Shown here: piece after piece, positions 42,854-63,839 of the stretch | Numbering within the stretch: the stretch's first letter is position 1 | How the letters are laid out: each line of letters starts with the position of its first letter | NCBI RefSeq assembly: GCF_003991875.1 | Contig: NZ_CP031423.1 | Coordinates: 2,542,001-2,606,000 of the forward strand | Origin: Microbacterium lemovicicum | GTDB taxonomy: Bacteria > Actinomycetota > Actinomycetes > Actinomycetales > Microbacteriaceae | Direction of reading: 5' to 3' | Length of the DNA: 64,000 nucleotides | Translations under genes and position numbers: made by a program | The notes under the pieces: generated by a model | Told to the model about the DNA's origin: nothing | The model's database searches: none | Seen by the model: the letters and a program-made list of their open reading frames with translations, nothing else

Positions 42854-42934
42854 GACGGTGGAGGCAGGCCCAGTTCCCGTCACGATCGGAGAGTATGCGC
42901 GCCGGCCGCCTAGATGGGGAGGGATCGGTCCCCA

Positions 42935-43272
42935 CGCAAGAGTGCGGAAATGTGCAGGATGCCGGACCACTCGGGCCCGAAGCATCCGCCATCTCGCACA
43001 TCTCCCCCGTCCTGCACACCCACTCGAAATCCCTCCCGGCGCCGCACATCTCCGCGCACTGCGCAAGAGTGCGGAAATGTGCAGGATGCCGGACCACTCG
43101 GGCCCGAAGCACCCGTCATCTCGCACATCTCCGCCGTCCTGCACACCCGCTCGGAAACCCGCCCGGCGCCGCACATCTCCGCGCACTGCGCAGAAGTGCG
43201 GAAATGTGCAGGATGCCGGACCAGTCGGGCGCGAAGCATCCGCCATCTCGCACATCTCCGTCATTCTGCACA
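42935..43272. repeat. 127-bp tandem direct repeat, about 2.7 copies
   Basis: Units begin at 42935, 43062 and 43189, each with GCGGAAATGTGCAGGATGCC and an oppositely oriented partner segment CATCTCGCACATCTCC, so every unit can form an imperfect hairpin. The third unit is truncated at about 43272. Copies differ by a few bases. The unit core GATGTGCAGGATG-like is shared with the palindromes on the other side of the DUF559 gene. No start codon and ribosome site make a credible gene here. Confidence 0.8.
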
Positions 43273-43290
43273 GATGGGGGACGAAGGGAC

Positions 43291-43448
43291 CGAGGAACCG
43301 AGGAACCGAGGAACCGAGGAACCGAGGAACCGAGGAACCGAGGAACCGAGGAACCGAGGAACCGAGGAACCGAGGAACCGAGGAACCGAGGGACGGAGCG
43401 ACGGGGGCCGAGGGAGCGAGGAACCGAGGAACCGAGGAACCGAGGAAC
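43291..43448. repeat. 8-bp microsatellite (CGAGGAAC)n
   Basis: Twelve perfect tandem copies of CGAGGAAC occupy 43291-43386, followed by about 30 degenerate bases and four more copies at 43417-43448. Eight is not a multiple of three, and the open frames through it encode only a repetitive Arg/Gly/Glu/Pro octapeptide, so it is not taken as coding. It lies downstream of nusG, beyond its terminator. Confidence 0.9.
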
Positions 43449-43494
43449 CGATCAGAACCGTCCACGTAGATCAGAGACACCCCCGAAACGCCGA

Positions 43495-43521
43495 AAGCGC
43501 CCCGTCTCAGACGGGGCGCTT
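43495..43521 (-). terminator. Terminator of the secE-nusG operon
   Basis: Perfect 12-bp stem AAGCGCCCCGTC / GACGGGGCGCTT with a 3-base loop, 18 bases beyond the nusG stop. It ends transcription before the repeats and so uncouples nusG from rplK. Confidence 0.85.
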
Positions 43522-45445: not shown

Positions 45446-46969
45446 TCACACGCCCTGGTGCTTGCGGCGATAGGCCGCCCACGTGACGGCCCACGTCGCG
45501 GGATCGTCGAGGCCGGAGCCGTCGATCTGGGCGACGACCTGGTTGTGCGGGGCGCTGCGCACCATCTCGGGGTCGCGCCGCCCCTCCTCGAGCACGTGCG
45601 CGAGCACGTCGATCCACTCGTCCAGGTCCTCCTTCGACCACATCTCCCCCGCCTCGGGGGTGAAGGGCTCCGGCGTCAGCCACGGCTCGTGCGCCAGCCA
45701 GTAGGCGTCGATCCCGAAGTCGGTCATGCGGTTCTGCACGTCGACGGTGGTGAGCCCCGTCTCGGCGGCGTACTCCTCGAGCGAGTAGCGCGTCATCTCC
45801 AGCCGCGGCAGCGCCTTGCCGGCGAAGGCCATCGTGACGCCGTCGAGCGCCATCAGGCGCGTCTCCATGTAGTTGTTGGCCAGCACCGACAGGTCGGCCG
45901 CCTCGCGGAGGCCGTCGGTGCCCATCGCCCGCGTCCACGAGTAGGCCTTGATGACCTGCGGCACGTTGCCGAGGAACTCCCGCACCCGCCCGATGCTCTG
46001 CTCCGGCTCGATGAGGTCGTACACGTCGCCGTTCTTGACGATGCGCGGACCGGGGAGGAACGGCGCGAGCGCCTCGGAGCAGCCGTAGGCGCCGACGGAG
46101 GGACCGTTGCCGCCCTTGTTCGCGCCGAAGCTCTTGTGGAGCATGTACATGCAGGCGTCGAAGCCGAGATCGTGGGCGCGCAGGCGGGTCATGACGCCGT
46201 TGAAGTTGGCGTTGTCGTAGAAGGCGAGCCCGCCGACCTCGTGCACCGCATCGATGAACTCGCGGATCCGCGGGTTGTAGATGCCCATGTCGTCGGGGTT
46301 GTTGAGCACGAGCGCCGCCGTGTCGGGGCCGATGACGGCCTTGAGCGCCTCGAGCGAGGGATACCCCTCCTCCTCCACGGGGAGCGTGATGACCTCGAAG
46401 CCGGCGGCCTTGGCCGTCGCGGGGTTGCACGGGTGCGCCTGGGCGGTCGTGATCACCTGCGTGCGCTGCGCGAGCTCGCCCCGGGAGGCGTGGTACGCCC
46501 GCGTGATGACGGCGTTCAGGTATGCGGCATCCGCCCCTCCCCCGGGCTGGAAGCTGAAGGCCGCCATCCCCGACAGGTTGCGCAGCTCGTCCTCCATGTC
46601 GTGGACGAGTCCGAGCACCCCCTGGTAGGTCGCGGGGTCCTGCCGGGGGTGCACCGCGGCGATCTCCGACCGGGCGGCGACGGCGTCGTTCACCGTCGGG
46701 TTGTGCTTCATCGTGCACGTGCCGAACAGGCTGATGCCCATCATCCCCATCGTCTGCTGCGACAGATGGGTGAAGTGGCGACGCACCTCGTACTCGGCGA
46801 GCTCCGGCAGGTCGGAGTCGCGCTCGCGACGGAGATCCTCGGGCAGAGCGGACGTGCCCTCCGGCGCCCACGAGGCCGGCGGGACGAATCCCCGGCGGCC
46901 GGGGGCGCCGAGCTCGTAGACGACCTTCTCGTCCCACGAGGCGGCGTGGAAGCGGCGGACGGCGCTCAT
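45446..46969 (-). CDS. Divergent glycine dehydrogenase (decarboxylating) subunit 2-like PLP enzyme
   Basis: A 507-residue PLP protein of the GcvPB type. Family landmarks are FTHLSQQTMGMMGISLFGTCTMKHNP, FSFQPGGGADAAYLNAV, GLAFYDNANFNGVM with the pyridine-binding Asp, and the PLP lysine in YMLHKSFGANKGGNGPSVG. The Gly-rich loop after the lysine is usually close to HKTFSTPHGGGGPG in true GcvPB, so here the Thr, His and two Gly are changed. No GcvH or GcvT gene is nearby. It probably acts with the adjacent GcvPA-like subunit on a glycine-related amino acid, but the reaction is not known. Start overlaps the GcvPA-like stop by 4 bases. Confidence 0.82.
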   Translation of the reverse strand: MSAVRRFHAASWDEKVVYELGAPGRRGFVPPASWAPEGTSALPEDLRRERDSDLPELAEYEVRRHFTHLSQQTMGMMGISLFGTCTMKHNPTVNDAVAARSEIAAVHPRQDPATYQGVLGLVHDMEDELRNLSGMAAFSFQPGGGADAAYLNAVITRAYHASRGELAQRTQVITTAQAHPCNPATAKAAGFEVITLPVEEEGYPSLEALKAVIGPDTAALVLNNPDDMGIYNPRIREFIDAVHEVGGLAFYDNANFNGVMTRLRAHDLGFDACMYMLHKSFGANKGGNGPSVGAYGCSEALAPFLPGPRIVKNGDVYDLIEPEQSIGRVREFLGNVPQVIKAYSWTRAMGTDGLREAADLSVLANNYMETRLMALDGVTMAFAGKALPRLEMTRYSLEEYAAETGLTTVDVQNRMTDFGIDAYWLAHEPWLTPEPFTPEAGEMWSKEDLDEWIDVLAHVLEEGRRDPEMVRSAPHNQVVAQIDGSGLDDPATWAVTWAAYRRKHQGV

Positions 46970-48369
46970 CGGGCCGTCACCTCCTCCAGCGCGGTGATCA
47001 GGGCTCTCACATCGGCCTCCGTGGTGAGTTCGGTGACGCAGTACAGGGCGCAGCCGTCGAGCCCGTCGTGGCTGCCGGTGAGGTCGTGTCCGCCCAGGAT
47101 GCCGCGGGTCAGCAGTGCGGCGTTGATGTCGGCGACCGGCATCCCGGTGCCGCGGAAGTCGACGACGAACTCCTTGAAGACGCGGTCGAGATGCGGCACG
47201 GACACCCCGGGGAGCGCATCGAGCAGCTCCGCCGTCGCGCGGGCGTTGGCCGCGTTCGTCTCCGCGAGCTCCCGCATGCCCGCCGGACCGAGGAGCGAGA
47301 GGTACACGGCCGCGCGGACCGCCCAGAGGTAGACGGAGTTGCCGGTCCAGTCGTTGCCGAGCTCCCGCGAGCCGTAAGAGCTCTGCGCGAAGAGCGTCAT
47401 CCCGAACGCCCGCTCCCCCTCGCGCAGCGTCGGGGCGATGCTCACCTGAAGCGTGGGGAACTCGCGGGCGTAGCGCTCCTCGTCGCGCGAGGCGATGAAG
47501 CCGCCGACGCCTCCGCCGGCGTAGAGGTGGATGCCCAGCGGCTGGATGGAGCCGACCAGGATGTCGGCGCCTGCGGCCGCCGGTGAGGCCAGGGCGCCGA
47601 GCGCGATCGGGTCGACGCCGACGACGGCCTCCGCGCCCACGGCATGGGTCGCCTCGATCAGCGCGGCCATCTCGAGCTCGATGACCCCCCAGGAGTTCGG
47701 GGTCTCGAGGTAGACCGCGGCGACGTCGTCGTCGAGCACGGCGGTGAGCGCGGCCGGGGAGACGGTGCCCGTCGCCGGGTCGACGGCGACCTCGCGGACG
47801 GTGAGGGCGCCGTCCAGCTCGCGGGAGCCGCAGTAGGTGTCGATGACGAGGCGGCGCTCACGGTCGACGTTCGAGGGGATGACGACCACCGAGCGACCCG
47901 TGAGGCGCGCCGCCATGCGCAGGGCGTGGCCCGCCGCGCAGCCCCAGCTGTAGACGGGCAGCCCGACGAACTCGAGGTCGAGCAGCGCGCCGAGCTGCGA
48001 GGTGAACTCGAACCAGGCCTGGTTGCGCCCGTGGTCGGAGCTCGGCGTGCCCCACACCGACGTGGAGATCTCGGGACGGGCGGCGATCTCGTCGCAGAGC
48101 GCCGGCACGTAGTGCTTCCAGTAGCCGCCGCCGAGGAACGAGATGTGCGAGTCCGTCGAGATGCCGCCGCGGAGGCGGCCCTCCAGCATCCGTCGCAGCT
48201 CCAGCTCGGAGCGGATGCCCGGCCGCGCGGCGATGGCGTCATCGGCCCGGTCGCGCTCCGGGATCTGCGCGAACAGCTCTTCGGCCGACGCGACGCCGAC
48301 CGCCTCGAGGAGGGCCTGGCCGCTCTGGGCGGCGGAGTTCGCCATATAAGGGTGCGCGGATGGTGTCAT
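46966..48369 (-). CDS. Divergent glycine dehydrogenase (decarboxylating) subunit 1-like protein
   Basis: A 467-residue GcvPA-type subunit. SHISFLGGGYWKHYVPALCDEIAARPE corresponds to the FLGxGxYxHYIP motif of GcvPA, but the following YQPEISQGxLQ motif reads TPSSDHGRNQAWFEF. Further family segments are YSWGCAAGHALRMAARLTG, VDPIALGALASPAAAGADI and GIHLYAGGGVGGFIAS. In the true enzyme subunits 1 and 2 decarboxylate glycine and load aminomethyl onto lipoyl-GcvH. ATG at 48369 with AGGAG 7 bases upstream; co-transcribed with the AcoX-like and aminotransferase genes. Confidence 0.82.
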   Translation of the reverse strand: MTPSAHPYMANSAAQSGQALLEAVGVASAEELFAQIPERDRADDAIAARPGIRSELELRRMLEGRLRGGISTDSHISFLGGGYWKHYVPALCDEIAARPEISTSVWGTPSSDHGRNQAWFEFTSQLGALLDLEFVGLPVYSWGCAAGHALRMAARLTGRSVVVIPSNVDRERRLVIDTYCGSRELDGALTVREVAVDPATGTVSPAALTAVLDDDVAAVYLETPNSWGVIELEMAALIEATHAVGAEAVVGVDPIALGALASPAAAGADILVGSIQPLGIHLYAGGGVGGFIASRDEERYAREFPTLQVSIAPTLREGERAFGMTLFAQSSYGSRELGNDWTGNSVYLWAVRAAVYLSLLGPAGMRELAETNAANARATAELLDALPGVSVPHLDRVFKEFVVDFRGTGMPVADINAALLTRGILGGHDLTGSHDGLDGCALYCVTELTTEADVRALITALEEVTAR

Positions 48370-48407
48370 CGTGCTTCTCCTGATCGGGTGTTCCGGTCGA
48401 TGCGCGG

Positions 48408-49538
48408 TCAGGCCGCGGCGTCGACGACGTTGAGGACGGTGGTCTGCCGGGCGCCGGTGCGCACGCGACGATAGCCGAGCAGCGGATGCCGCGACCCGGC
48501 CGGTTCGCCGCCGAGACCGTCGTCGGCGTCGATGTAGAGGACGGGCGGGACGAGCGTGGCGACCTTAGACGACGTCGCGACGATCGACACCCGGTCGGCG
48601 CCCAGTGCCGACAGCACCCGCGGGCTCAGCTCGTGGTTGCCGCGGCCCAGGAGGAAGCCCTGACCGCCCACGACGCCGAGTACGAGGCGGGGATCGGCGG
48701 CAGCGCTCACGACCGCCAGCAGGCGCTCCTCGTCGACGTCGAGCTCGACGGCGCCGGACGGATGCCGCACATCCACCCCGCGGAGGGTGCCGGCGACGCC
48801 GAGGGCGTCGGCCAGCGCGGCCGCGGTGGTGCCGGGGCCGATGATCCAGGTTGTCGCCGGTCCGCTCGCGCGCAGCAGCTCCGCCGCGATCGCGCGGCGC
48901 TCGCCCGCATCGGACGGTGCCGAGGAGCCGCCCTTCGCGCCCTGCAGGGGCTCGCCCGCGCGCGCGGCGCGCAGAGCGGCGATCACTCCCGGGGAGCCGT
49001 CGGCCGCGGCATCCAGGACGTCGGCGGTCTCGTCCCACGCCCGCCCGGCCGTCAGCTCGGCGAGCAGCCGCCCCGCGGCCTCCGGCGAACGGGAGAAGAC
49101 CTGCGAGTGCATCTTCACGCCCGAGGGCACGCCGATCACCGGCACCGCCAGGCCGATCGCCTCGGCGATGTCGGTGGCCGTGCCGTCTCCGCCGGAGAAG
49201 AGGAGCGCGTCGATGCCGTCGGCGATCAGCCTCCGAGCCGCCGCCAGGGTGTCGCGGCGGGTGGTGGGGCCGGTCGCCTCCTCGACGACATCGACCCGCG
49301 CGTCGAACCCGGCGGAGCGCAGCGCGTCCGCGCCGAGCAGCCCGGGGGCCGACACGAGACGCGCCGCGCCGCCGCGCGCCTGCCAGGTCTCGAGCGCACG
49401 CACGAGGCGCCGGCTCGAGCGCCCGGCCGCGACCGCGTCGGCGAACCGATCGGCAGCGAGCAGGTCGGTGCCGTGCATCGCCAACGTGCCGCCGAACCCG
49501 GCGATCGGGTTCAGCAGCACGCCGACGCGCATGGTCAT
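48408..49538 (-). CDS. AcoX/ATP-NAD kinase-like protein
   Basis: A 376-residue protein with the NAD/diacylglycerol-kinase fold: VGVLLNPIAGFGG at the N-terminus, the nucleotide motif LLFSGGDGTATDIAEA around residue 117, and GVPSGVKMHSQVFS. A C-terminal domain (LVLGVVGGQGFLLGRGNHELSPRVL) is typical of the AcoX group found beside acetoin dehydrogenase genes, whose function is still unclear. Two ATGs (49538, 49532) are both possible. It lies 2 bases after the aminotransferase stop and 38 bases before the GcvPA-like gene, so it belongs to that operon. Confidence 0.82.
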   Translation of the reverse strand: MTMRVGVLLNPIAGFGGTLAMHGTDLLAADRFADAVAAGRSSRRLVRALETWQARGGAARLVSAPGLLGADALRSAGFDARVDVVEEATGPTTRRDTLAAARRLIADGIDALLFSGGDGTATDIAEAIGLAVPVIGVPSGVKMHSQVFSRSPEAAGRLLAELTAGRAWDETADVLDAAADGSPGVIAALRAARAGEPLQGAKGGSSAPSDAGERRAIAAELLRASGPATTWIIGPGTTAAALADALGVAGTLRGVDVRHPSGAVELDVDEERLLAVVSAAADPRLVLGVVGGQGFLLGRGNHELSPRVLSALGADRVSIVATSSKVATLVPPVLYIDADDGLGGEPAGSRHPLLGYRRVRTGARQTTVLNVVDAAA

Positions 49539-49540
49539 CG

Positions 49541-50914
49541 TCAGGACGCGCTCCGCCGGGCCTCGACGGCGCGATCGAGTCCGGCGCGGACGCCCACGAC
49601 CATGCGCTCGAGCTCATCGCGGGTGGTCACGAACGGCGGGGAGAACGACACGGTGTCGGCCTCGGGCAGCGCGCGCGTGATGACGCCCGCCTCGCGGGAG
49701 TGGAGCGTGACCGCCGTCGCGAACGCGCCCTGCGCCGCGAACGGCCGCAGCGGCTCGCGGGACTCGACGAACTCCAGCGCGGCCATCAGGCCCTTGCCGC
49801 GGATCTCGCCGACGTTCGGGTGGTCGCCGAACTCCGCGCGCAGCAGCTCGTGCAGGTAGGCGCCGTTCTCGGCCACCTGCGCGATCAGGCCGTCGCGCTC
49901 GATGATGTCGAGGTTGGCCATGGCCGCGGCCGCCGCCAGGGGGTGCGCGGAGTAGGTGTAGCCGTGACCGAAGCTGCCGTACTTCGCCGACCCCTCCAGC
50001 AGCACCTGCCAGACCTTCTCACTGACGAGGACGGCCGAGAGCGGCACGTAGGCCGAGGTGATGCCCTTCGCGACCGTCATCAGGTCGGGACGCATCCCGA
50101 CGGCGTCACTGCCGAACGGCACGCCCAGGCGCCCGAAGCCGTTGACGACCTCGTCGGCGATGAGCAGCACGTCGTAGCGGTCGAGCACCTCCTGGATCTT
50201 CGGGAAGTACGTGTCGGGCGGCACGATGACACCGCCGGCGGCCATGACCGGCTCGGCGATCATCGCGGCGACGGTCTCGGGACCCTCGTCGAGGATGAGG
50301 GTCTCGAGCTCCGCGGCGAGCGCGGTGGAGAACTCCTCGTCGCTCTGGCCCGGCGCCCGCTCCCACAGGCGGTGCGGCGGGCGGACGTGGCGGATCATCG
50401 GCAGCGGCAGGTCGAAGCCGTCGTGCAGGTTCTTGAGCCCGGTCAGCCCGCCGGACAGCACCGTCACGCCGTGATAGCCGCGGCGGCGGGAGATGATCTT
50501 CTTCTTCTCCGGCCGGCCGAGCACGTTGTTGTAGTACCAGACGAGCTTCGCCTGCGTGTCGTTCGCGTCGGAGCCGGAGTTGCCGAAGAACACCTTGCTC
50601 ATCGGCACCGGCGCCATGCGGATCAGCCGCTCCGACAGCAGCGCCGGCAGCTCCGTCCCCATCGAGGAGAACGCGTGGAAGTAGGGCAGCTTCGACGCCT
50701 GCGCGTGGAGCGCGTCGGCCATCTCGGGGTGGGAGTAGCCGACGTTCACGCACCACAGCCCCGCCATGGCGTCGAGATAGTCCCGGCCGTTGCTGTCGGT
50801 GACGGTGGCGCCATGACCCTCGACGATCGTCAGCGGCGGCCCGTTCTGCTCGTGGGCCGCGAGGTTGGTCATGGGGTGGAACAGGTAGGCCCTGTCCAGC
50901 TCCTCGATCTGCAT
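49541..50914 (-). CDS. Class III omega-aminotransferase
   Basis: A 457-residue PLP enzyme that moves a terminal amino group to pyruvate or a 2-oxo acid. Seen are GHGATVTDSNGRDYLDAMAGLWCVNVGY, the phosphate-binding SGSDANDTQAKLVWYYNN, IADEVVNGFGRLG with the PLP Asp, and the PLP lysine in TVAKGITSAYVPL. It resembles omega-amino acid:pyruvate aminotransferases. ATG at 50914 with GAAGG upstream; a GTG at 50923 is the alternative. It heads the operon with AcoX- and GcvP-like genes and is divergent from a semialdehyde dehydrogenase that could oxidise its product. Confidence 0.88.
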   Translation of the reverse strand: MQIEELDRAYLFHPMTNLAAHEQNGPPLTIVEGHGATVTDSNGRDYLDAMAGLWCVNVGYSHPEMADALHAQASKLPYFHAFSSMGTELPALLSERLIRMAPVPMSKVFFGNSGSDANDTQAKLVWYYNNVLGRPEKKKIISRRRGYHGVTVLSGGLTGLKNLHDGFDLPLPMIRHVRPPHRLWERAPGQSDEEFSTALAAELETLILDEGPETVAAMIAEPVMAAGGVIVPPDTYFPKIQEVLDRYDVLLIADEVVNGFGRLGVPFGSDAVGMRPDLMTVAKGITSAYVPLSAVLVSEKVWQVLLEGSAKYGSFGHGYTYSAHPLAAAAAMANLDIIERDGLIAQVAENGAYLHELLRAEFGDHPNVGEIRGKGLMAALEFVESREPLRPFAAQGAFATAVTLHSREAGVITRALPEADTVSFSPPFVTTRDELERMVVGVRAGLDRAVEARRSAS

Positions 50915-51028
50915 TCGGTACACCTTCGTTCGTTCGCTTTACGCACTACTGGTCGCATTTCGCACATTACCCGTATGCTGGACGCGGTTCAAACGATTTT
51001 CGATGTTCACAGAAAGCAGTAGGTGATC
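50915..51028. promoter_or_regulatory. Divergent promoter region with candidate IclR-type site
   Basis: The AT-richer stretch 50954-50978 (CGCATTTCGCACATTAC, then CCGTATGC) resembles CGCAATACGCACACTAT ... CGTATTGC at 62210-62238, the other divergent promoter of this island; 13 of the first 17 bases agree. A further CGCACTA lies at 50942. These may be binding sites for the IclR-type regulator encoded at 52529. No strong -35/-10 pair was found. Confidence 0.5.
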
Positions 51029-52498
51029 ATGTCCTCCACCCGTCGCGCACTCCTCGAAGGCGATCTCCTGCGCACGCAGCTCCATTACGGGGGGCAGTGG
51101 CGCGACGGCTCCGCCGGCGAGCGCCGCCCGGTCACGGATCCGTCGACCGGCGAGGAGATCGTTCAGGTCGCCGTGGCCACGGCCGAGGACGTCGAGGCGG
51201 CCGTCCAGGCGGCGCACGAGGCGTTCCTGTCGTGGTCGAAGGTGCCCGCGCCCACCCGCGCCCGCACACTGCGCCGGTGGTACGACCTGGTGGTCGAGAA
51301 CGCCGACGACCTCGCGCAGATCCTCACGTGGGAGCAGGGCAAGCCGCTGGCGGAGGCCCGCGCCGAGGTGCTCTACGGCGCCTCCTTCATCGAGTGGTTC
51401 GCCGAGGAGTCCAAGCGCCTCTACGGCGAGGTCATCCCCACGAACAACCCCGACCGCCGCATGATGACGACGCGCAACGCGGTCGGCGTCACCGCCGCGA
51501 TCACCCCGTGGAACTTCCCCGCCGCGATGATCCTCCGCAAGGCCGCGCCCGCGCTGGCCGCGGGCTGCTCCATGATCATCAAGCCGGCCGGTGAGACGCC
51601 GCTGTCGGCCTTCGCGCTCGTCGCCCTCGCCGAGAAGGCGGGTCTCCCCGCCGGCGTGCTCAGCGTCGTGAACGGCTCCGGAGCGCTCATCGGCGAGGTG
51701 CTCACGAGCCACGACCTGGTGCGCACGATCAGCTTCACCGGCTCCACCGAGGTCGGGCGCACGCTCATGGCCCAGTCGGCCGGCACCCTCAAGCGGCTCG
51801 CCCTCGAGCTCGGCGGCAACGCGCCGCTCATCGTCTTCGACGACGCCGACCTCGCCAACGCGGTGAAGGGCACGATCGACTCGAAGTTCCGCAACGCCGG
51901 GCAGACGTGCGTGTGCGCCAACCGCATCTACGTCCAGGCCGGCATCCACGACCGCTTCGTCGACGCCCTCGCCGAGGCCATCGACAGGCTGCGGGTCGGC
52001 GACGGCCTCGAGCCCGACACCACCCAGGGCCCCCTCATCTCGCAGGCGGCCGTCGACAAGGTGGCCTCCCACATCGCGGATGCCACGGCCAAGGGTGCCT
52101 CGGTGGTGCGCGGTGGCGGCGTGAACGAGCGGGGCGGCACGTTCTTCGACCCCACGCTGCTCGTCGGCGCGACCCAGGACATGGTCGTCGCCCGCGAGGA
52201 GACCTTCGGGCCGCTCGCACCCGTCTTCAAGTTCGAGACGGAGGAGGAGGCCATCGCGATGGCCAACGACACCGAGTTCGGGCTGGCCGGCTACTTCTTC
52301 AGCCGCGACATCGGCCGGGTCACCCGTGTCGCCGAGGCGCTCGAGGTGGGCGTCGTCGGTGTGAACACCGGCCTCATCTCCTACGAGGGCGCGCCTTTCG
52401 GCGGCATCAAGCAGTCCGGCATCGGCCGCGAAGGGTCGCTGCACGGCATCGACGAGTACACCGAGCTCAAGTACATCTGCATCGAGGGCGTCTCGTGA
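51029..52498 (+). CDS. NAD(P)-dependent aldehyde dehydrogenase, succinate-semialdehyde type
   Basis: A 489-residue aldehyde dehydrogenase. Landmarks are ITPWNFPAAMILRKAAPALAAG, FTGSTEVGRTLMAQ with the cofactor turn, the catalytic Glu in LELGGNAPLIVFDDADL and the catalytic Cys in FRNAGQTCVCANRIYV. The pattern LYGEVIPTNNPDRRMMTTRNAVGVTAAITPWNF fits GabD-like enzymes for succinate or alpha-ketoglutarate semialdehyde. ATG at 51029 with AGGTGATC upstream. Divergent from the aminotransferase and likely its next step; it could also take alpha-ketoglutarate semialdehyde from a hydroxyproline-like route. Confidence 0.9.
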   Translation: MSSTRRALLEGDLLRTQLHYGGQWRDGSAGERRPVTDPSTGEEIVQVAVATAEDVEAAVQAAHEAFLSWSKVPAPTRARTLRRWYDLVVENADDLAQILTWEQGKPLAEARAEVLYGASFIEWFAEESKRLYGEVIPTNNPDRRMMTTRNAVGVTAAITPWNFPAAMILRKAAPALAAGCSMIIKPAGETPLSAFALVALAEKAGLPAGVLSVVNGSGALIGEVLTSHDLVRTISFTGSTEVGRTLMAQSAGTLKRLALELGGNAPLIVFDDADLANAVKGTIDSKFRNAGQTCVCANRIYVQAGIHDRFVDALAEAIDRLRVGDGLEPDTTQGPLISQAAVDKVASHIADATAKGASVVRGGGVNERGGTFFDPTLLVGATQDMVVAREETFGPLAPVFKFETEEEAIAMANDTEFGLAGYFFSRDIGRVTRVAEALEVGVVGVNTGLISYEGAPFGGIKQSGIGREGSLHGIDEYTELKYICIEGVS

Positions 52499-52528: not shown

Positions 52529-53332
52529 ATGGTGATCACCGCGCCGGAGACGGACCGGGCCTCCGGAGAGTTCGTCCAGTCGCTCGATCGCGGACTGGCC
52601 GTCATCCGGGCGTTCTCGAACGACCACGACATGCTGTCGCTCGCCGACGTGGCGAAGATCACGAACCTCAGCAGGGCAGCGGTGCGGCGCGCCCTTCTGA
52701 CCCTCGAGACACTCGGGTACGTCGGGAGCCGTCAGAGCCGCTTCTACCTCCGGCCGCGGGTGCTCGACCTGGGCTACGCGTTCCTGTCGTCCTCGTCGAG
52801 CATCGACATCACGCAGGACGCCCTGCGACGGCTGTCGGCGCAGATCGGCGAGTCGGTGTCGGCCTGCGAGTACGACGACGGCGACGTGGTCTACGTGGCG
52901 CGCGCCGCGACCGAGACGATCATGCCCATCCGGCTCGGGATCGGGCGGCGCCTGCCGGCGTTCTGCACCTCGACGGGCCGGGTGCTGCTGTCGCAGATGT
53001 CTCCCGGCGAGCTCGACGCGTACTTCGCGATGTACCCGCGCGAGAAGGTCTCACCCGTGACGGTGACCGACGAGCAGGCGCTCCGCGACATCCTCGCGCA
53101 GGTCCGGGAGCAGGGGTGGTCGCTGAACGACCGCGAGGTCGACCTCGGTGCGCGCTCGATCGCCGCACCGATCGTGGGCGCCGACGGCCGCTACGTCAGC
53201 GCCGTGAACATCTCCGTCTCGACCTCGCGCGTCTCTGTGGAGCAGCTGATGTCGGACCACCTCCCGCAGCTGCTCAGCGCGACCGCCAAGATCAGCGCGG
53301 ACCTCGCGATGATCCAGCGCCGCGACACCTGA
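52529..53332 (+). CDS. IclR-family transcriptional regulator
   Basis: A 267-residue regulator. The winged helix is QSLDRGLAVIRAFSNDHDMLSLADVAKITNLSRAAVRRALLTLETLGYV; the effector domain includes VSACEYDDGDVVYVARA, the CTSTGRVLL motif around residue 152 and LGARSIAAPIVGADGRYVSAVNIS. The PcaR/PobR subgroup usually responds to aromatic acids or small organic acids and can activate or repress. It is 30 bases after the aldehyde dehydrogenase gene and probably controls the island through the sites near 50954 and 62197. Confidence 0.9.
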   Translation: MVITAPETDRASGEFVQSLDRGLAVIRAFSNDHDMLSLADVAKITNLSRAAVRRALLTLETLGYVGSRQSRFYLRPRVLDLGYAFLSSSSSIDITQDALRRLSAQIGESVSACEYDDGDVVYVARAATETIMPIRLGIGRRLPAFCTSTGRVLLSQMSPGELDAYFAMYPREKVSPVTVTDEQALRDILAQVREQGWSLNDREVDLGARSIAAPIVGADGRYVSAVNISVSTSRVSVEQLMSDHLPQLLSATAKISADLAMIQRRDT

Positions 53333-53410: not shown

Positions 53411-54493
53411 GTGGCACGTCCCGCCTCCCGTCTGTTCAGCCCCATCACCGTCAACGGGCTGACCATCCCGCACCGCCTCTGGGTGGCGCCGATGTGCCAG
53501 TACTCGTCGGTGGACGGGATGCCGGCCGAGTGGCACCTCGTGCACCTCGGATCCTTCGCCATCGGCCGGGCGGGCATGATCATGACCGAGGCGGCCGCCG
53601 TCTCGCCCGAGGGCCGGATCAGCCCGGACGACGTCGGCATCTGGAACGACGAGCACACGGCGGGCTGGCGGCGCGTGGTGGACTTCGTCCACGGCATGGA
53701 CAGCCTCATCGGCATCCAGCTCTCCCACGCCGGCCGCAAGGCGTCGACCTACCCGCCGACCCGCGGCCGGGGGTCCGTCCCCGCCGAGGAGGGCGGCTGG
53801 ACGACGCTGGGCCCGTCCGACACCCCCTACGGAACCTTCACCGTCCCCGTCGCCATGGGCACCGACGACATCGCGAAGGTCGTGCGCGACTACGCCGACG
53901 CCGCGACGCGCGCGGTGGAGGCCGGCTTCGACCTCGTGGAGATCCACGCGGCCCACGGCTATCTGCTCGGACAGTTCCTCTCCCCCACCTCGAACCGTCG
54001 CACCGACGCGTACGGCGGCGACGCCGCCGGCCGGGAGAAGCTGCTGCACGAGGTGATCGCGGCGGTGCGCGAGCGCATCCCGGCCGCCATGCCGCTCGTC
54101 CTGCGCGTCTCGGCCACCGAGTGGGTGCCCGACGGCGTGACCGTCGAGGACACCATCGAGACGCTGCGGCGCATCGACGGCGTGGATCTCGTCAGCGTCT
54201 CGTCCGGCGGCAACGACCCGCGCCAGGCCATCCCCTCCGGCCCCGGCTACCAGCAGCCCCTGTCCCGGGCCGTGCGCGCGGCCGTCGATCTGCCGGTCGG
54301 CGTCGCGGGTCTCATCACCACGCCCGAGCAGGCCGAGGCCGCGCTCGGCGCCGGTGACGCCGACGTGGTCTACGTCGCCCGCCAGTTCCTCCGCGAGCCG
54401 ACCTTCCCGCTGCGCGCGGCGGCCGCCCTCGGAGGCGAGCTCGAATGGGCGTGGCAGTACAACCGCGCCAAGTACGTCGAGTCGATCCCCTGA
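53411..54493 (+). CDS. Old Yellow Enzyme-family NADH:flavin oxidoreductase (YqjM-like)
   Basis: A 360-residue FMN TIM-barrel enzyme. The N-terminal APMCQYSSVDG with Cys29 and Tyr31 is the YqjM signature; QLSHAGRKAS and HAAHGYLLGQFLSPTSNRRTDAYGG give the substrate-binding His pair and FMN loops. Such enzymes reduce activated C=C bonds with NADPH; related members act on dienoyl-CoA or N-methyl amines. GTG at 53411 with AAAGAGAG upstream. It follows the IclR gene by 78 bases and ends in a clear terminator. Confidence 0.88.
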   Translation: MARPASRLFSPITVNGLTIPHRLWVAPMCQYSSVDGMPAEWHLVHLGSFAIGRAGMIMTEAAAVSPEGRISPDDVGIWNDEHTAGWRRVVDFVHGMDSLIGIQLSHAGRKASTYPPTRGRGSVPAEEGGWTTLGPSDTPYGTFTVPVAMGTDDIAKVVRDYADAATRAVEAGFDLVEIHAAHGYLLGQFLSPTSNRRTDAYGGDAAGREKLLHEVIAAVRERIPAAMPLVLRVSATEWVPDGVTVEDTIETLRRIDGVDLVSVSSGGNDPRQAIPSGPGYQQPLSRAVRAAVDLPVGVAGLITTPEQAEAALGAGDADVVYVARQFLREPTFPLRAAAALGGELEWAWQYNRAKYVESIP

Positions 54494-54628: not shown

Positions 54629-54976
54629 TCAGTGCGTGTGGGGATCTCCCGCCGTGTCCGCGACGGCCGAGGCCGGGGAGGCGGCGATCTGGTGCTCCAC
54701 CGTCATCCCCTCGCGCACCCACGTCACGCAGGTGCGGGTGTTCGGCACGCCGTCGACCACCATCACGCAGTCGAAGCAGACGCCCATCCCGCAGTAGTAC
54801 CCACGGGGAGCGCGGCGCTCGGTCTCACGCAGGGCGAGGTCGCGATCGGCCATGACGGCCGCCGCGACGCTCTCGCCCTCGTAGGCGACGGCGGGACGCC
54901 CGTCGAGCACGATGCCCACCCGCGGGCCGCGCTCGAGGCCGTGCCCCGGCACACGTCCGGAGCGTGCGCCGCTCAT
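54629..54976 (-). CDS. [2Fe-2S] ferredoxin-like subunit (HcnA/SoxA-type)
   Basis: A 115-residue protein with a plant-type [2Fe-2S] cluster motif: Cys62-X4-Cys67-X2-Cys70-X12-Cys83 in GYYCGMGVCFDCVMVVDG. The preceding part (VGIVLDGRPAVAYEGESVAAAVMA) is the beta-grasp fold. Small subunits like this belong to hydrogen cyanide synthase (HcnA), D-hydroxyproline dehydrogenase (gamma) and octopine/nopaline oxidases, where they pass electrons between two flavin subunits. Start overlaps the DapA-family stop by 4 bases. Its partner is the fused flavoprotein two genes upstream. Confidence 0.88.
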   Translation of the reverse strand: MSGARSGRVPGHGLERGPRVGIVLDGRPAVAYEGESVAAAVMADRDLALRETERRAPRGYYCGMGVCFDCVMVVDGVPNTRTCVTWVREGMTVEHQIAASPASAVADTAGDPHTH

Positions 54977-55914
54977 ACCGCCGCCTTCTCCGTGAGCATG
55001 CCCTCCTCCAGGAGGATGGCCCGCATCGCCTCGAGCTTGGCCGGATCGGTGACCGGGAGCCTCGGGCTGCGCACATGCCCGGCGGGCTGGTCGAGCATGT
55101 GCATGAGCGCCTTGAGCTGAGCCTGGTACGAGCCGAAGTGGCCGGCCCACCCGCCCGGCAGCCAGAGCCGGGGGAACAGCCGGTCGGCACGCTCGGCGTA
55201 CTCCTCCATCGGAGCGAAGTCGCCGCGCCAGTAGTCCTCCCAGAACGCCGGGTCGGGCGAGCCGTTGAGCGAGCCTCCGCCGACGAACCCGTCGCCGCCC
55301 TCGGTGCGCAGCACCTCGACGCCGCGGGCCGACATGTACGGGCCGAAGACGCGCACGCGGTCGCGCACGCGACGCGCGGTCTCGAAGAACTGGTCGGCGT
55401 CGGGCGTGCTGTCCTTGATCGCGACGACCGACTCGATGTCGGCGAGGCGGTCGGCCAGGTCGCTGCCGATGTCGACGCCGGTGCCGTGCGGCCAGTTGTA
55501 GACCACCAGGGGCGCCTTCACCCGGTCGCTGATGTCCTCGTACCAGGCGATGACCTCGTCGGGGAACAGCTTGATGTACGGCGGCGGCGAGGCCAGCACG
55601 CCGTCGGCACCGGCGGCGAGCGCGTGGGAGGCCAGGTCCTGCACGTTCTCCGCGCGATTCGAGGTGCAGCCCACCAGCACGCGCAGCCGGCCGGCCGCAG
55701 CGGAAACCGCCGTCTCGGCGACGGCCTTGCGCTCGTCGGTGCTCTGGGAGAACCACTCGCCGCACGTGCCGTTGATGACGGCGCCGTGCATCCCGCGCTC
55801 GGCGTACTGGTCGATCAGCGCGGCCAGGGTGTCGAGGTCGAGGTCGCCCGACTCGGTGAAGGGGGTGACCACCGCCGGGAAGTAGCCGGCCCAGTCGACG
55901 TCGTCGCGGTTCAT
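54973..55914 (-). CDS. DapA/NAL-family lyase or deaminase
   Basis: A 313-residue class I aldolase-fold protein. The Schiff-base Lys167 is in VVAIKDST, the catalytic Tyr139 in VYNWPHGTG and the carboxylate-binding loop is INGTCGEW (49-54). Dihydrodipicolinate synthase is unlikely because the gene lies among catabolic oxidoreductases. Family alternatives are pyrroline-4-hydroxy-2-carboxylate deaminase, which yields alpha-ketoglutarate semialdehyde, or an aldolase. The nearby HcnABC-like enzyme and semialdehyde dehydrogenase fit the deaminase idea, which is inference. Confidence 0.83.
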   Translation of the reverse strand: MNRDDVDWAGYFPAVVTPFTESGDLDLDTLAALIDQYAERGMHGAVINGTCGEWFSQSTDERKAVAETAVSAAAGRLRVLVGCTSNRAENVQDLASHALAAGADGVLASPPPYIKLFPDEVIAWYEDISDRVKAPLVVYNWPHGTGVDIGSDLADRLADIESVVAIKDSTPDADQFFETARRVRDRVRVFGPYMSARGVEVLRTEGGDGFVGGGSLNGSPDPAFWEDYWRGDFAPMEEYAERADRLFPRLWLPGGWAGHFGSYQAQLKALMHMLDQPAGHVRSPRLPVTDPAKLEAMRAILLEEGMLTEKAAV

Positions 55915-55956: not shown

Positions 55957-58653
55957 TCAGACCAGCGCGGCGTTGCCGCGATCCAGCGAGAACCGTTCGG
56001 GGAAGGGGGAGACCGTGCCGGGGCGGTCGAGGATGCTCTCGGCCACCTGACGGGCGTAGATCGGGGAGAACGTGAAGCCGGTCGTGGCGACGCAGGCGTA
56101 GTAGCCCGGGACGAGGGCGGACTCGCCGACGATGGGCGAGAGGTCGTCGGTGAACGCGATGACGCCCGACCAGGTGCGCACGACGCGCACGTCCTCCAGC
56201 GCGGGCACGACGTCGAGGGCGACCCGGAGGTTGCCGGCGGCGCTGCGCCACTGCGTCGGGTAGCGCCGCGGATAGCCGGTCGACCCCGTCGGCCAGCCGC
56301 CGCCGATGATGAACGAGCCGTGCGTGCTCTGCTTCAGCGTGAGTCGACGGCCGATGTGCTGCACCATCGAGGGCAGGAGGGGGCTCCGCGACTCCGTCAC
56401 GTTCACGTGCAGGCCCTCGCGGCGGATCGGGAAGCGCAGGCCGACCATCGCCGCCTGCTCCCCCGCCCAGCCGCCGGCGCAGTTGACCACGCGGCGCGCG
56501 CGGATCGTCCCGCGCGTGGTGTGCACGGTGAAGCGGTGGGCGGCGGAGGCGTCGTCGACGTCGATCGCCAGCACCTCGCTGTGCGTGCGGACGCGGGCGC
56601 CGTGCTCAGCCGCGCGCCGCGCGTAGAGCAGCGCGGTGACGAGCGGGTTGGCGTGCCCCTCGAGGCCGCAGTAGGTCGCGCCGAGCACACGGTCGGAGAA
56701 GTAGGGCGCACGATCCCGCAGCGCTGCTCCGGTGAGCACCTCGGTCTCGATGCCCGCCTCCTCCTCGAGGACGTGCTTCTCGTGCAGCAGCGCGAGCTGC
56801 TCCGGCGTCTCCGCCACCATCCACCCGCCGGTCTGGTGCAGGCCGAGGTCGGCGTCGAGCTCCGCGCCGAGTCTCGTCCAGAGGCCGTACGCCTCGACGC
56901 TCGAGCGCGCGTCGCTCAGCAGCCGTGCGCGGTCGGCCTCGGCGCCGCGGCCGGAGAGCTGGTGGATGGCGAGCTGGAAGTGGAAGCTGCCGGCGTTGGT
57001 GCCGGATGCCTCGCGGTTCAGCTCGGCGCGCTCGAGCAGCTCGACCTCCACGCCCTCCTTCGCGAGGTAGTAGGCCACGGCGGCCCCGGCGATGCCGCCG
57101 CCGATCACGAGGACGTCGGTCTCCGTGACCGGACCGCGGGCGCTGCGCACGATCTCCTCGGCGACGAGGTCGGTGCGCGCCGGTTCGACCGGAGCGCCCT
57201 CCTTGGCCTCGAACAGCCCGGGGTCGGTCACCTCGGCGTCGGCGATCGCGCCGATGGCAGTCGGTCGCAGCGGCATGCGCGGTGTCGCGGGCGGAATCTC
57301 GGCGATCGGCACGTCGCGGGCGGCGGCGATCATGGCGGCGATGTGGCGGCCGCACATGCGCCCCTGGCACGGGCCCATGCCCGCGCGGGTCGCGCCCTTG
57401 ACCGCGCTGACCTCCGGCGCCTCGGCGATGGCCTCGGCGATCGCCCCGGCGGTGACGCTCTCGCACCGGCAGACCACGGTCTCGGGGGTGGCCAGCTCGA
57501 AGATGCCGTCTCCGACGCGGTACATGCGATGGGTGGCGTCGGTGAGGGCACGGCGGCGGCCGACGCGTGTCAGCAGCGGGGCGGCGGACGCCGCGGCATC
57601 CGCTGCGCTCATCCGTCCGGCGTCCTGCGCCACGGCGAGGGCGGCGATGCGCCCCTCGTCCACGGCGACCGCGGAGCCCTCGACACCGGCTCCGTCGCCG
57701 ACGGCGTAGACGCCGGCGACGTCGGTGCGGCGCCAGTCGTCCGTGCGGATGACGGGACCGCCGAGGTCCTCCCGGCTGTCGAACGAGCAGCCGACGAGGC
57801 GCAGCAGCTCCGTCGACGGAGTGAAGCCGTAGCCGACGCACAGCACGTCGGCCTCGACGGTGGTCTCGGTGCCCGGGATGACGCGCCAGTCGGCGTCGAC
57901 GCGGGCGTGCACGACGCGCTCGACCCGGCCGTCGCCCTCGGCGCGCACGACGATGCGGCCGTACTTCAGGGGGATCCGGTGGCGGAGCAGGGCCGCCTGG
58001 TAGGCCGCGGCGTCGCGGAGCAGGCCGACGTTGCCGGGAGCCGCCCGCGCGATGCGGATCAGATCGCCCGGAGAGGGAGCGGGTCCGGCCTCGAGCGCGG
58101 CGACGATGTTCGCGCCGTAGCCGGCGAGCTGCGCGGGGAACGCGAGGGCGACGGGACCGGAGCCGGCGAACACGATGCGCTCGCCGGGGATGACCGACTG
58201 CGTCTTGGCCAGGGTCTGCAGGCCGCCGGCGGTGATCACCCCGGGGAGCGTCCAGCCGGGGAAGACGACGGGACGGTCGTTCGCGCCCGTCGCGACGATC
58301 ACCCGCGCCGCGCGGACCGGCGCGACGGGGCCGCCGTCGGTCTGCACCATGGCCGTCCAGCCCTCGTCCGCCGGGGCGAGATCCACCACGGTCGTGCGCA
58401 GGAGGAGGTCGGCGCCGGAGGCCTCCGCCTCCTCGATGAGAGCGCGACCGGCCCGGTACTGCGCTCCCATCTCTCGGGCGTCGGTGACCCGCATGCCCGG
58501 TCCGGGCTGCTTGTAGACCTGCCCGCCCAGGGTGGGGCGCTCGTCGATGAGCGCGGCACGCAGCCCCGATGCGGCGGCGGTGGAGGCCGCCGCCATGCCG
58601 GCGGGGCCTCCCCCGACGATCAGGACGTCGTAACCGCGCTCATCGACCGCCAT
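55957..58653 (-). CDS. Fused two-flavoprotein oxidoreductase (HcnB-HcnC / D-hydroxyproline dehydrogenase alpha-beta type)
   Basis: An 898-residue fusion. Residues 1-385 are a pyridine-nucleotide-disulfide-type FAD domain (GGGPAGM at 14-20, second dinucleotide fold near 163, AVGDGAGVEG near 317). Residues 390-440 form a BFD-like [2Fe-2S] domain with Cys395-X-Cys397 and Cys429-X4-Cys434. Residues about 510-898 are a glycine/D-amino-acid-oxidase-type FAD domain (VIGGGIAGAAVAYYL). In HCN synthase, D-hydroxyproline dehydrogenase and opine oxidases these are separate subunits; here they are one chain, with the ferredoxin subunit encoded nearby. It should oxidise a C-N bond of an amino or imino acid at the membrane side of respiration. 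Substrate unknown. Confidence 0.87.
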   Translation of the reverse strand: MAVDERGYDVLIVGGGPAGMAAASTAAASGLRAALIDERPTLGGQVYKQPGPGMRVTDAREMGAQYRAGRALIEEAEASGADLLLRTTVVDLAPADEGWTAMVQTDGGPVAPVRAARVIVATGANDRPVVFPGWTLPGVITAGGLQTLAKTQSVIPGERIVFAGSGPVALAFPAQLAGYGANIVAALEAGPAPSPGDLIRIARAAPGNVGLLRDAAAYQAALLRHRIPLKYGRIVVRAEGDGRVERVVHARVDADWRVIPGTETTVEADVLCVGYGFTPSTELLRLVGCSFDSREDLGGPVIRTDDWRRTDVAGVYAVGDGAGVEGSAVAVDEGRIAALAVAQDAGRMSAADAAASAAPLLTRVGRRRALTDATHRMYRVGDGIFELATPETVVCRCESVTAGAIAEAIAEAPEVSAVKGATRAGMGPCQGRMCGRHIAAMIAAARDVPIAEIPPATPRMPLRPTAIGAIADAEVTDPGLFEAKEGAPVEPARTDLVAEEIVRSARGPVTETDVLVIGGGIAGAAVAYYLAKEGVEVELLERAELNREASGTNAGSFHFQLAIHQLSGRGAEADRARLLSDARSSVEAYGLWTRLGAELDADLGLHQTGGWMVAETPEQLALLHEKHVLEEEAGIETEVLTGAALRDRAPYFSDRVLGATYCGLEGHANPLVTALLYARRAAEHGARVRTHSEVLAIDVDDASAAHRFTVHTTRGTIRARRVVNCAGGWAGEQAAMVGLRFPIRREGLHVNVTESRSPLLPSMVQHIGRRLTLKQSTHGSFIIGGGWPTGSTGYPRRYPTQWRSAAGNLRVALDVVPALEDVRVVRTWSGVIAFTDDLSPIVGESALVPGYYACVATTGFTFSPIYARQVAESILDRPGTVSPFPERFSLDRGNAALV

Positions 58654-63076: not shown

Positions 63077-63089
63077 GGAGGGCGGAGGG

Positions 63090-63839
63090 ATGACCTCGCT
63101 CGACGGGCGCACCGCGCTCATCACCGGCGTCTCGGGCGGCATCGGCACGGCGCTGGCCGCGACCTTCGCCCGCGAGGGCGCGGCCGTCATCGGGACCTAC
63201 CGGCAGCGCCGCGCCGAAGCCGAGACGGCGGTCCCCGGAGGGCTCGCCCAGCTGCTCGACGCCGACCTGTCCGATGCCGGCGCGGCGCGCGATCTCTGGC
63301 GGCGCGCGCGGGCCGCGGCATCCATCGACACCCTCGTGGTCAACGCGGCCACCCTCGTCCCCACGGCTCTCGACGCCGACGACGAGGACTGGGACGACGG
63401 CTGGCAGCGGTCGCTGCAGACCAACGTCGTCGCCGCCTCCACCCTGATGCGCGCCGCGGCCGCCGACTTCGCCGAGCGGGGGTCGGGGTCCATCATCGCG
63501 ATCTCGAGCTGGGCCGCCCAGCAGGGGTCGCGCCTGCCCGACCTGGGCGCCTACGCCGCCTCGAAGGCCGCCCTCCGCAACTTCGCCCAGACGCTCGCCC
63601 GCGCGACGGCACGCGACGGCGTGCGCGTGTACACCCTCGCCCCCGGCCCCGTCGGCACCGGCATGGGGACGGTCGACCGCGACGACGACGAGATCCGCGC
63701 GGTCGCCGACGGCCTCGCGATGGGCCGCCACGTGGACGCGCAGGAGATCGCCGAGCTCGCCGCCTTCCTCGCGAGCGATCGCTGCCCCAGCCTGACCGGA
63801 TCCACCCTCGACCTGAACGGCGCGAGCTACATCCGCTGA
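63090..63839 (+). CDS. SDR-family oxidoreductase
   Basis: A 249-residue classical short-chain dehydrogenase. The cofactor motif is TGVSGGIGTALA (residues 14-25), the NNAG-equivalent is VVNAATLVPT, and the catalytic set is Ser in IAISSWAAQQG and Tyr-X3-Lys in GAYAASKAALRNF. PGPVGTGMGTVDRDDDE follows the catalytic helix. Ribosome site GGAGGG lies just before the ATG at 63090. It may reduce or oxidise a hydroxyl on the same substrate series as the preceding SDR; the pair are not close copies. Confidence 0.9.
   Translation: MTSLDGRTALITGVSGGIGTALAATFAREGAAVIGTYRQRRAEAETAVPGGLAQLLDADLSDAGAARDLWRRARAAASIDTLVVNAATLVPTALDADDEDWDDGWQRSLQTNVVAASTLMRAAAADFAERGSGSIIAISSWAAQQGSRLPDLGAYAASKAALRNFAQTLARATARDGVRVYTLAPGPVGTGMGTVDRDDDEIRAVADGLAMGRHVDAQEIAELAAFLASDRCPSLTGSTLDLNGASYIR

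Follow-up and report, generated by a model that had tools for sequence, protein, structure and literature searches.

An AcoX-type kinase and a non-canonical GcvPA/GcvPB-like pair as a conserved gene unit that is very probably distinct from glycine cleavage

The operon of Microbacterium lemovicicum

Within the 64-kb window (the whole stretch of M. lemovicicum DNA that was analysed), the ORF coordinates reveal four tightly packed genes on the minus strand, encoding a class III aminotransferase, an AcoX-like protein, a GcvPA-like subunit (PA), and a GcvPB-like subunit (PB) (Table 1). A gap of 2 bp separates the aminotransferase gene from that of AcoX, 38 bp lie between the AcoX and PA genes, and the genes for PA and PB overlap by 4 bp. 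This packing confirms a preliminary description of the locus, which placed the pair in one operon with an AcoX-type gene and an aminotransferase; the earlier coordinate for the aminotransferase, 50914, corresponds to an alternative internal ATG. The same description had reported neither GcvT nor GcvH at the locus, and this was also borne out: a profile search found neither within the window, and across the whole genome the single GCV_H match and the six GCV_T matches are all located beyond its limits. A complete gcvP-H-T cluster is present elsewhere in this genome. The 99-bp spacer upstream of the operon is likely to be a control region common to both sides.

Table 1. Features of the operon and of its surroundings, in window positions
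Feature	Position	Strand	Detail
GcvPB-like subunit with PLP lysine K279	45446..46969	-	NCBIfam GcvPB 484.4 bits
GcvPA-like subunit, non-canonical clade	46966..48369	-	PF02347 129.1 bits
AcoX-type kinase (NAD kinase / DAG kinase / sphingosine kinase superfamily)	48408..49538	-	
Class III (omega) aminotransferase	49541..50923	-	operon's first gene; PF00202 289.4 bits
Likely shared control region, divergent intergenic, 99 bp	50924..51022	.	between gene starts 50923 (-) and 51023 (+)
Succinate-semialdehyde-dehydrogenase-like (SSADH-like) aldehyde dehydrogenase, divergent partner	51023..52498	+	TIGR01780 686.8 bits, cut-off 646.35
IclR-type regulator, PcaR/PcaU/PobR subfamily	52529..53332	+	TIGR02431 282.9 bits, slightly below cut-off 284.75
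Old Yellow Enzyme family oxidoreductase, recurrent neighbour	53411..54493	+	PF00724
Dihydrodipicolinate-synthase-family lyase, recurrent neighbour	54973..55914	-	PF00701
Fused FAD amine dehydrogenase, recurrent neighbour	55957..58653	-	Pyr_redox_2 + Fer2_BFD + DAO domains
Short-chain dehydrogenase (SDR)	63096..63839	+	longer ORF 62907-63839; sequence grouping and family scan

Recurrence of AcoX with the PLP pair

Relatives were sought by scoring the candidates that shared the most words with the query, at least 120 matches being listed, and the PA family was found in Actinomycetota, Pseudomonadota, Bacillota, and the haloarchaea. The best 80 of 318 relatives were kept. The locus comparison covered 87 family loci; the controls were 20 canonical loci on long contigs, hand-picked from 142 genomes with a match and restricted to Actinomycetota. 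The HMMs used for locus counts, neighbour counts, and layouts were built from family loci, so that their scores favour the family; with these, AcoX was found at 81/87 family loci versus 0/20 canonical loci, while GcvH showed the reverse pattern (0/87 versus 20/20). PB lies immediately downstream of PA in all 87 cases, and AcoX lies no more than 2.2 kb away in 77 (49 upstream on the same strand, 22 divergent, 6 downstream). Mirror-tree correlations, which are partly due to the shared ancestry of the genomes, were 0.90 for PB, 0.80 for AcoX, and 0.735 for the aminotransferase, with permutation maxima of 0.145, 0.14, and 0.162, respectively. In addition, AcoX is present in all eight plasmid records that match the PA family, one of which is an unannotated record. 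Thus, the possibility raised in the preliminary description, that the genes are never conserved together, does not apply.

The co-conserved set of four genes that had been proposed holds only in part. The core of AcoX, PA, and PB recurs, but the class III aminotransferase occurs at 48/87 family loci and is absent from the other 39; a stricter layout count gives 47/87, one weak match falling below its threshold. One plasmid without the aminotransferase carries a primary-amine oxidase instead. Consequently, the conserved unit is AcoX+PA+PB, and the aminotransferase is accessory. An apparent fusion of the aminotransferase with GcvPA at one locus (L069) proved to be an artefact, since the matching part of the long ORF is confined to residues 497-957 and corresponds to PA only. 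Even the kinase appears dispensable in one branch, because four Paenibacillaceae genomes carrying the PA/PB pair yielded no AcoX match at E<=1e-5.

Several neighbours in the window also recur: the IclR-type regulator (38/87 family loci), the dihydrodipicolinate-synthase-family lyase (37/87), the fused FAD amine dehydrogenase (26/87), which we take from its domain make-up to be HcnB/HcnC-like, and the Old Yellow Enzyme family gene (18/87) were each found at 0/20 controls, and SSADH HMM matches were obtained at 33/87 family loci versus 2/20 control loci. The IclR-type protein is a probable regulator of the pathway. The SDR belongs to a group of 20 members that includes proteins from Pseudomonas, Caballeronia, and other family loci. 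Taken together, these findings indicate that AcoX+PA+PB is almost certainly a separate conserved module, whose gene neighbours are typical of the catabolism of amino compounds.

The AcoX protein itself matches PF01513 (60.1 bits) and PF20143 (30.7 bits), each above its cut-off, and no NCBIfam model at E<=0.001; its GGDGTA motif is invariant in 48 rows. A sequence search of the PDB found nothing up to E 1, and Foldseek alone found nothing at E<=0.001. The protein has the NADK/DAGK superfamily fold, and structurally NAD kinase is about as near to it as DAG kinase. AcoX genes are linked to acetoin dehydrogenase operons, and the preliminary description had taken this as their setting outside the present locus. 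That generalization found no support in the records read: AcoX homologues were present in 12 plasmid records, eight of which carry the PA family, and in three of the remaining four (3.7 to 8.5 kb each, two unannotated there) no acetoin genes were seen, the neighbours having been read by eye except for epmC. In one of these three, from Peptoclostridium, the AcoX gene overlaps a HisC/CobD-like PLP gene (HisC 230.5, CobD 144.4, both under cut-off); another has epmC near AcoX, and the third has genes that look, by eye, like those for DAHP synthase and TerC. Acetoin dehydrogenase genes are likewise not found beside AcoX in the window, where its neighbours are the aminotransferase, PA, and PB, followed by the aldehyde dehydrogenase and IclR genes. 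To our knowledge, the role of AcoX is not established.

The active site of the pair and glycine cleavage

Alignments, limited to rows of at least 85% of the query length, agree with the earlier statement that the pair keeps the PLP fold and has changed motifs by the catalytic lysine and in the YQPE loop. In PB, the PLP lysine K279 is kept in family and canonical rows, as are H278, D252, and H179, and we presume that this histidine, D252, and H179 have PLP-binding roles. Beside the lysine, the H of the canonical PHGGGG motif is K in 75/85 family rows and H in 10/85. Among the family-specific residues of PB (W345, E391, R394, H427), E391 and R394 are present in 85/85 rows, and PA has gained conserved charges at D112 (88/88) and R115 (85/88). 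None of the 88 family rows has the PA loop YTPYQPExSQG intact; in M. lemovicicum it reads WG-TPSSDHGR. Y95, T96, P97, Y98, Q99, E101, S103, and Q104 are invariant across 29 canonical rows; three of these, P97, Y98, and S103, are changed in all 88 family rows. Both tyrosines of YTPY are kept in 29/29 canonical rows, whereas in the family the second is deleted in 88/88 and the first is kept in 10/88. In a study of human GLDC, these tyrosines (Y161/Y164) are listed as active site residues (PMC7259800), and the alignment register with the human protein was checked. The same 10 rows, nine from Bacillota and one from locus L105, keep both the first tyrosine and the H beside the lysine; six of these loci have AcoX, and four are the Paenibacillaceae. 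In a tree of PA made by a quick method, a single branch (SH-aLRT 100) separates 88 family rows from 28 canonical rows, the latter all from Actinomycetota.

Given that the loop is altered in every row and that one tyrosine is deleted in all, PA/PB very probably does not serve as a P-protein of glycine cleavage. The alternative, that the pair is a second, divergent P-protein using a GcvH encoded elsewhere, would agree with the scores of both subunits, which exceed the NCBI equivalog cut-offs for glycine dehydrogenase (PB 484.4 bits versus 441; PA 375.3 bits versus 364), and with the presence of GcvH elsewhere in 46 of the 49 genomes tested (hand-picked out of 80). The two H-protein contacts predicted in the same source, Arg373 and Lys376 (PMC7259800), give a mixed picture: K persists at the Lys376 position in 20/88 family rows, but Arg373, which is Arg in 28/29 canonical rows, is Arg in only 2/88 family rows and so is the only clean loss of the two. 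The residues changed throughout the family and the lack of GcvH at all 87 family loci also argue against this alternative. Furthermore, GcvH was not found in 3/49 genomes, all draft; two of these come from isolates that retain PA/PB, and in both the sole PF02347 match is the family PA, leaving neither GcvH nor a canonical P-protein. In one of the two, Cohnella, GCV_T matches are lacking as well. A role for a distant carrier is excluded only in genomes without GcvH, since the other 46 genomes have one elsewhere. Overall, a divergent P-protein is very improbable, and it is highly likely that PA/PB works without a lipoyl carrier. The preliminary proposal that the pair acts on some other amino compound, outside glycine cleavage and with no lipoyl carrier, thus gains support from these results.

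A proposed pathway and its relation to known systems

These observations have led to a model, based on gene content and residue conservation, in which a lipoate-free PA/PB decarboxylase-type module would operate with AcoX, the aminotransferase, and the aldehyde dehydrogenase; the probability of the model as a whole is put at roughly 0.5. The decarboxylation of a novel amino acid and the phosphorylation suggested in the preliminary description enter this model as inferences. PA/PB would be a PLP enzyme of alpha-beta type whose amino substrate is larger and carries negative charge, probably a hydroxylated amino acid. Activation would take place at the alpha carbon of this substrate, most likely through decarboxylation, and no lipoyl carrier would serve as acceptor. 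AcoX would phosphorylate a hydroxyl on the substrate or an intermediate. The resulting amine would be converted to an aldehyde by the class III aminotransferase with pyruvate, or by an amine oxidase, and the SSADH-like dehydrogenase would then yield the acid; SDR and 3HCDH-family dehydrogenases would handle hydroxyls, and the IclR regulator would control the set. Alanine dehydrogenase genes at 5/87 family loci fit pyruvate as the amino acceptor, and the aminotransferase is predicted to transaminate an amine of the pathway. Among the parts of the model, a reaction at the alpha carbon of a larger, anionic substrate seems reasonably probable, whereas phosphorylation of a pathway metabolite by AcoX is given even odds, and decarboxylation by PA/PB is a balanced choice over C-C lysis.

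A more specific scheme, in which AcoX would phosphorylate a hydroxy amino acid at its beta-hydroxyl and the alpha carbanion formed on decarboxylation would expel the phosphate as an internal acceptor, is distinctly unlikely. If it were true, a P-protein would have been rebuilt by exchanging its protein-bound acceptor for a leaving group made by a kinase, and AcoX would have the general task of phosphorylating compounds with vicinal hydroxy/amino or hydroxy/keto groups. Neighbour scans fixed no substrate, as transporters and hydrolases vary between branches. The transporters near family loci include polar amino acid ABC, sugar-type ABC, and APC types, and so substrates may differ among loci. 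Catabolism of hydroxyproline, ectoine, hydroxylysine, carnitine, or mycosporine was considered as well; each seems to fit some neighbours, and none fits all of them.

Two other explanations accept the module and assign different functions to its members. PA/PB could be a C-C lyase or thiolase that cleaves an amino-ketone, with CoA or water as the acceptor, after SDR/3HCDH enzymes have oxidised a beta- or gamma-hydroxyl. Amino-ketone cleavage has precedents in 2-amino-3-ketobutyrate CoA ligase and 2-amino-4-oxopentanoate thiolase, and the neighbourhoods supply candidates: 3HCDH genes at 34/87 family loci versus 0/20 controls, SDR-cluster genes at 37/81 loci (a large family, hence partly chance), three Bacillota loci (L104, L107, L112) where the set has two flanking SDRs, and AMP-binding or CoA-transferase genes at some loci. 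However, ScoB-like CoA-transferases occur at 8/87 loci, AcoX would be left without a role, and the members of the fold family known to us decarboxylate at the alpha carbon; this explanation is considered unlikely. It is also unlikely that AcoX acts in an accessory way as a kinase of NAD(H), feeding NADP(H) to the dehydrogenases of the pathway while the PLP pair acts alone, and the separate NAD kinase-like gene of M. lemovicicum is counted in favor of the decarboxylase-type model.

The widespread unit of PA/PB and a kinase seems to serve the breakdown of an amino compound other than glycine. Nevertheless, curated models and public records name PA/PB glycine dehydrogenase in three bacterial phyla and the haloarchaea, and metabolic reconstructions could be misled into assigning glycine cleavage to such organisms, Histidinibacterium aquaticum and Cohnella endophytica being examples. 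The conserved partner gives AcoX a function that can be tested; and if the pair is free of a lipoyl carrier, it would represent a new answer to the fate of the carbanion in P-protein-type decarboxylation. We know of no biochemistry for the AcoX+PA+PB module, and a search of the open-licence PMC literature for the module, acoX, and COG3199 found no apparent description.

Among known systems, the GcvPA/GcvPB P-protein of Thermus thermophilus (PDB 1wyt) shares with the pair its family, the PA-PB gene order, the PLP lysine and histidine, D252, and H179. In contrast, the family PA forms its own clade with an altered loop, 86/88 rows have lost the Arg predicted to contact the H-protein, and the loci have AcoX as a partner with no adjoining GcvH. 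The AcoX, or predicted ATP-NAD kinase, family has in common with the present protein the GGDGT motif, PF01513 and PF20143, and the kinase fold; the difference lies in the linkage, which is to a PLP pair rather than to acetoin dehydrogenase. The aminotransferase resembles the class III omega-aminotransferases of the PRK06105/PRK07482 type, passing the NCBIfam cut-off for PRK06105 (580.9 bits, cut-off 517) and not reaching that for PRK07482, and its sequence matches in the PDB are class III/omega transaminases; here, however, it is accessory to the module. Finally, in the synthesis of the cobalamin side chain, L-threonine kinase acts before the threonine-phosphate decarboxylase CobD. Although AcoX and PA/PB belong to different kinase and PLP families, that system offers a conceptual precedent for a kinase that feeds a PLP decarboxylase with a phosphorylated hydroxy amino acid.

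Operon layout and surroundings

The host genome is one contig of 3.56 Mb, of which the window covers bases 2542001-2606000. The operon runs from the aminotransferase through AcoX to the GcvPA-like (PA) and GcvPB-like (PB) subunits; its genes are 2 bp and 38 bp apart at the first two junctions and overlap by 4 bp at the last. A gene for a succinate-semialdehyde-dehydrogenase-like aldehyde dehydrogenase (SSADH) is divergent from it, starting 99 bp away, and an IclR regulator gene is next; farther along lie genes for an Old Yellow Enzyme, a DHDPS-family lyase and a fused FAD amine dehydrogenase.

Operon members in the window
Gene	Position	Strand
Class III aminotransferase	49541-50923	-
AcoX-like	48408-49538	-
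GcvPA-like	46966-48369	-
GcvPB-like	45446-46969	-

The fused FAD amine dehydrogenase is encoded by one 898-residue ORF (55957-58653) that joins two FAD subunits, which appear as separate genes in several relatives. At about 42900-43500, close to genes read by eye as nusG and ribosomal proteins, ORFs on both strands encode short repeated peptides (EEPRNRGT-like), which by eye suggest a tandem DNA repeat.

A separate clade and its gene partners

A genome scan with PA found 318 relatives, the best 80 of which were used as loci; seven more, from eight plasmid records, brought the set of family loci to 87. Family members score at least 383 bits to the window PA and canonical GcvPA proteins at most 197 bits. 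A tree was built by a quick method from 88 family rows and 28 canonical ones, the latter all from Actinomycetota; one branch divides the two groups (SH-aLRT 100). The family occurs in Actinomycetota, Pseudomonadota, Bacillota and two haloarchaea, sometimes on plasmids. Within the phylum of the host it is seldom seen: among 296 sampled genomes, only the host's gave a family-level PA match, and AcoX was found at E<=1e-15 in two. The PA of an Enemella evansiae locus (L100, Actinomycetota) is Roseobacter-type in the tree, which suggests horizontal transfer, and the contig recorded under the name Planococcus sp. APC 4015 (L039) falls within Microbacterium there; this record looks mislabelled or contaminated.

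PB lies immediately downstream of PA in all 87 family loci, and AcoX is present in 81. In 77 loci it is no more than 2.2 kb away, and three layouts occur. All eight plasmid records with a family PA carry AcoX (12 plasmid records have AcoX in total). Conversely, the 20 canonical loci, each of 18 to 20 kb, have GcvH in every case and AcoX in none. Of six family loci lacking AcoX, one (L082) sits at a contig end and a haloarchaeal one has AcoX 56 kb off on the same plasmid; the other four are Paenibacillaceae whose genomes gave no AcoX match at E<=1e-5, and these are genuine exceptions. In these four (L106, L108, L113, L114), genes for a LacZ-type beta-galactosidase and a sugar-type ABC transporter lie directly upstream of SDR-PA-PB, the beta-galactosidase being called by scanning in L108 and by cluster in the others.

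The four-gene set of the preliminary description recurs as far as PB and AcoX are concerned, while the class III aminotransferase is found in only 48/87 family loci (1/20 controls). Other neighbors are IclR (38/87), a DHDPS-family gene (37/87), 3HCDH (34/87), FAD amine dehydrogenase (26/87) and Old Yellow Enzyme (18/87), each in 0/20 controls, together with SSADH (33/87 versus 2/20). Alanine dehydrogenase, in five family loci, would fit an aminotransferase using pyruvate. One plasmid has a primary-amine oxidase and no aminotransferase within the stretch read. The pathway probably includes an amine-to-aldehyde step.

Outside the family, AcoX and epmC (PF04315, elongation factor P hydroxylase) overlap on a Pseudoalteromonas piscicida plasmid record (L150, 8448-10122), possibly tying AcoX-type kinases to hydroxylysine chemistry; by eye, no epmC-like ORF was seen next to AcoX in an Aeromonas locus (L152). 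On a Peptoclostridium acidaminophilum megaplasmid (L149, 9992-12068), AcoX overlaps a gene for a HisC/CobD-like PLP enzyme.

Loss of glycine cleavage features

As had been noted for the window, GcvH is absent beside the pair: it is present in 0/87 family loci versus 20/20 canonical ones. Elsewhere in 49 family-bearing genomes, GcvH was present in 46 and absent from three. In two of these three, the draft assemblies of Histidinibacterium aquaticum and Cohnella endophytica, the family PA is the sole PF02347 match, and it is unlikely that assembly gaps hide both P and H in the two of them. A GCV_T search found no match in the C. endophytica genome and seven in H. aquaticum: four within open frames of at least 801 residues, one possible GcvT of 127 bits (482-residue frame) and two weak. 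It is very unlikely that PA/PB acts in glycine cleavage.

PB keeps the PLP lysine, its adjoining histidine, D252 and H179. In PA, the canonical loop YTPYQPExSQG becomes approximately [V/Y][W/F]G-xxxxDxGR, and the change first seen in the window holds throughout: the second YTPY tyrosine is deleted in 88/88 family rows and the first retained in 10/88. PMC7259800 places human GLDC Y161 and Y164 in the active site and gives Arg373 and Lys376 as H-protein contacts predicted by docking; by alignment count (offset 43, matched to Arg373/Lys376 in PDB 6i33), Y161/Y164 are the YTPY pair. The Arg373 position has Arg in 2/88 family versus 28/29 canonical rows, and the Lys376 position is mixed, with K in 20/88 family rows and K or R in 29/29 canonical rows. 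Newly conserved charges are D112 (88/88) and R115 (85/88) in PA and E391 and R394 (each 85/85) in PB; K285 is conserved save in locus L105 and, L039 aside, the nine Bacillota rows. These charges and the altered loop, at pocket positions predicted by homology, would fit a larger anionic substrate.

A candidate catabolic module

Taken together, the best-supported reading is that AcoX, PA/PB, an aminotransferase or amine oxidase, and an aldehyde dehydrogenase form a catabolic module for an amino compound. In this model, AcoX would phosphorylate a hydroxyl on the compound, and PA/PB would use PLP to act on its alpha carbon, in a reaction that involves no lipoyl acceptor and is probably a decarboxylation; the aminotransferase or amine oxidase and then the aldehyde dehydrogenase would follow. 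The comparisons show that the genes stay linked, that glycine cleavage features are lost and that the PLP residues are kept, while the phosphorylation, the substrate and the reaction are inferred. Alternatively, PA/PB may be a C-C lyase or thiolase, or AcoX may supply NADP. The host has both a canonical gcvP-gcvH-gcvT cluster (1981475-1985240) and an NAD kinase-like gene separate from AcoX; consequently, the window operon is an addition to its own set.

Searches of open-licence PMC papers turned up no description of the gene set. The window's PB and PA subunits score above the cut-offs of the GcvPB and GcvPA equivalog models (NCBIfam NF003346 and NF001696), respectively, and such acceptance by curated models would lead genome annotation astray. 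At the centre of the candidate module is an enzyme derived from the P-protein that has a new partner and has lost glycine cleavage features: it shares its PLP residues with the canonical P-protein but differs in its loop and in having mostly lost Arg373, and its loci, unlike canonical GcvPA loci, mostly carry AcoX and in no case GcvH.
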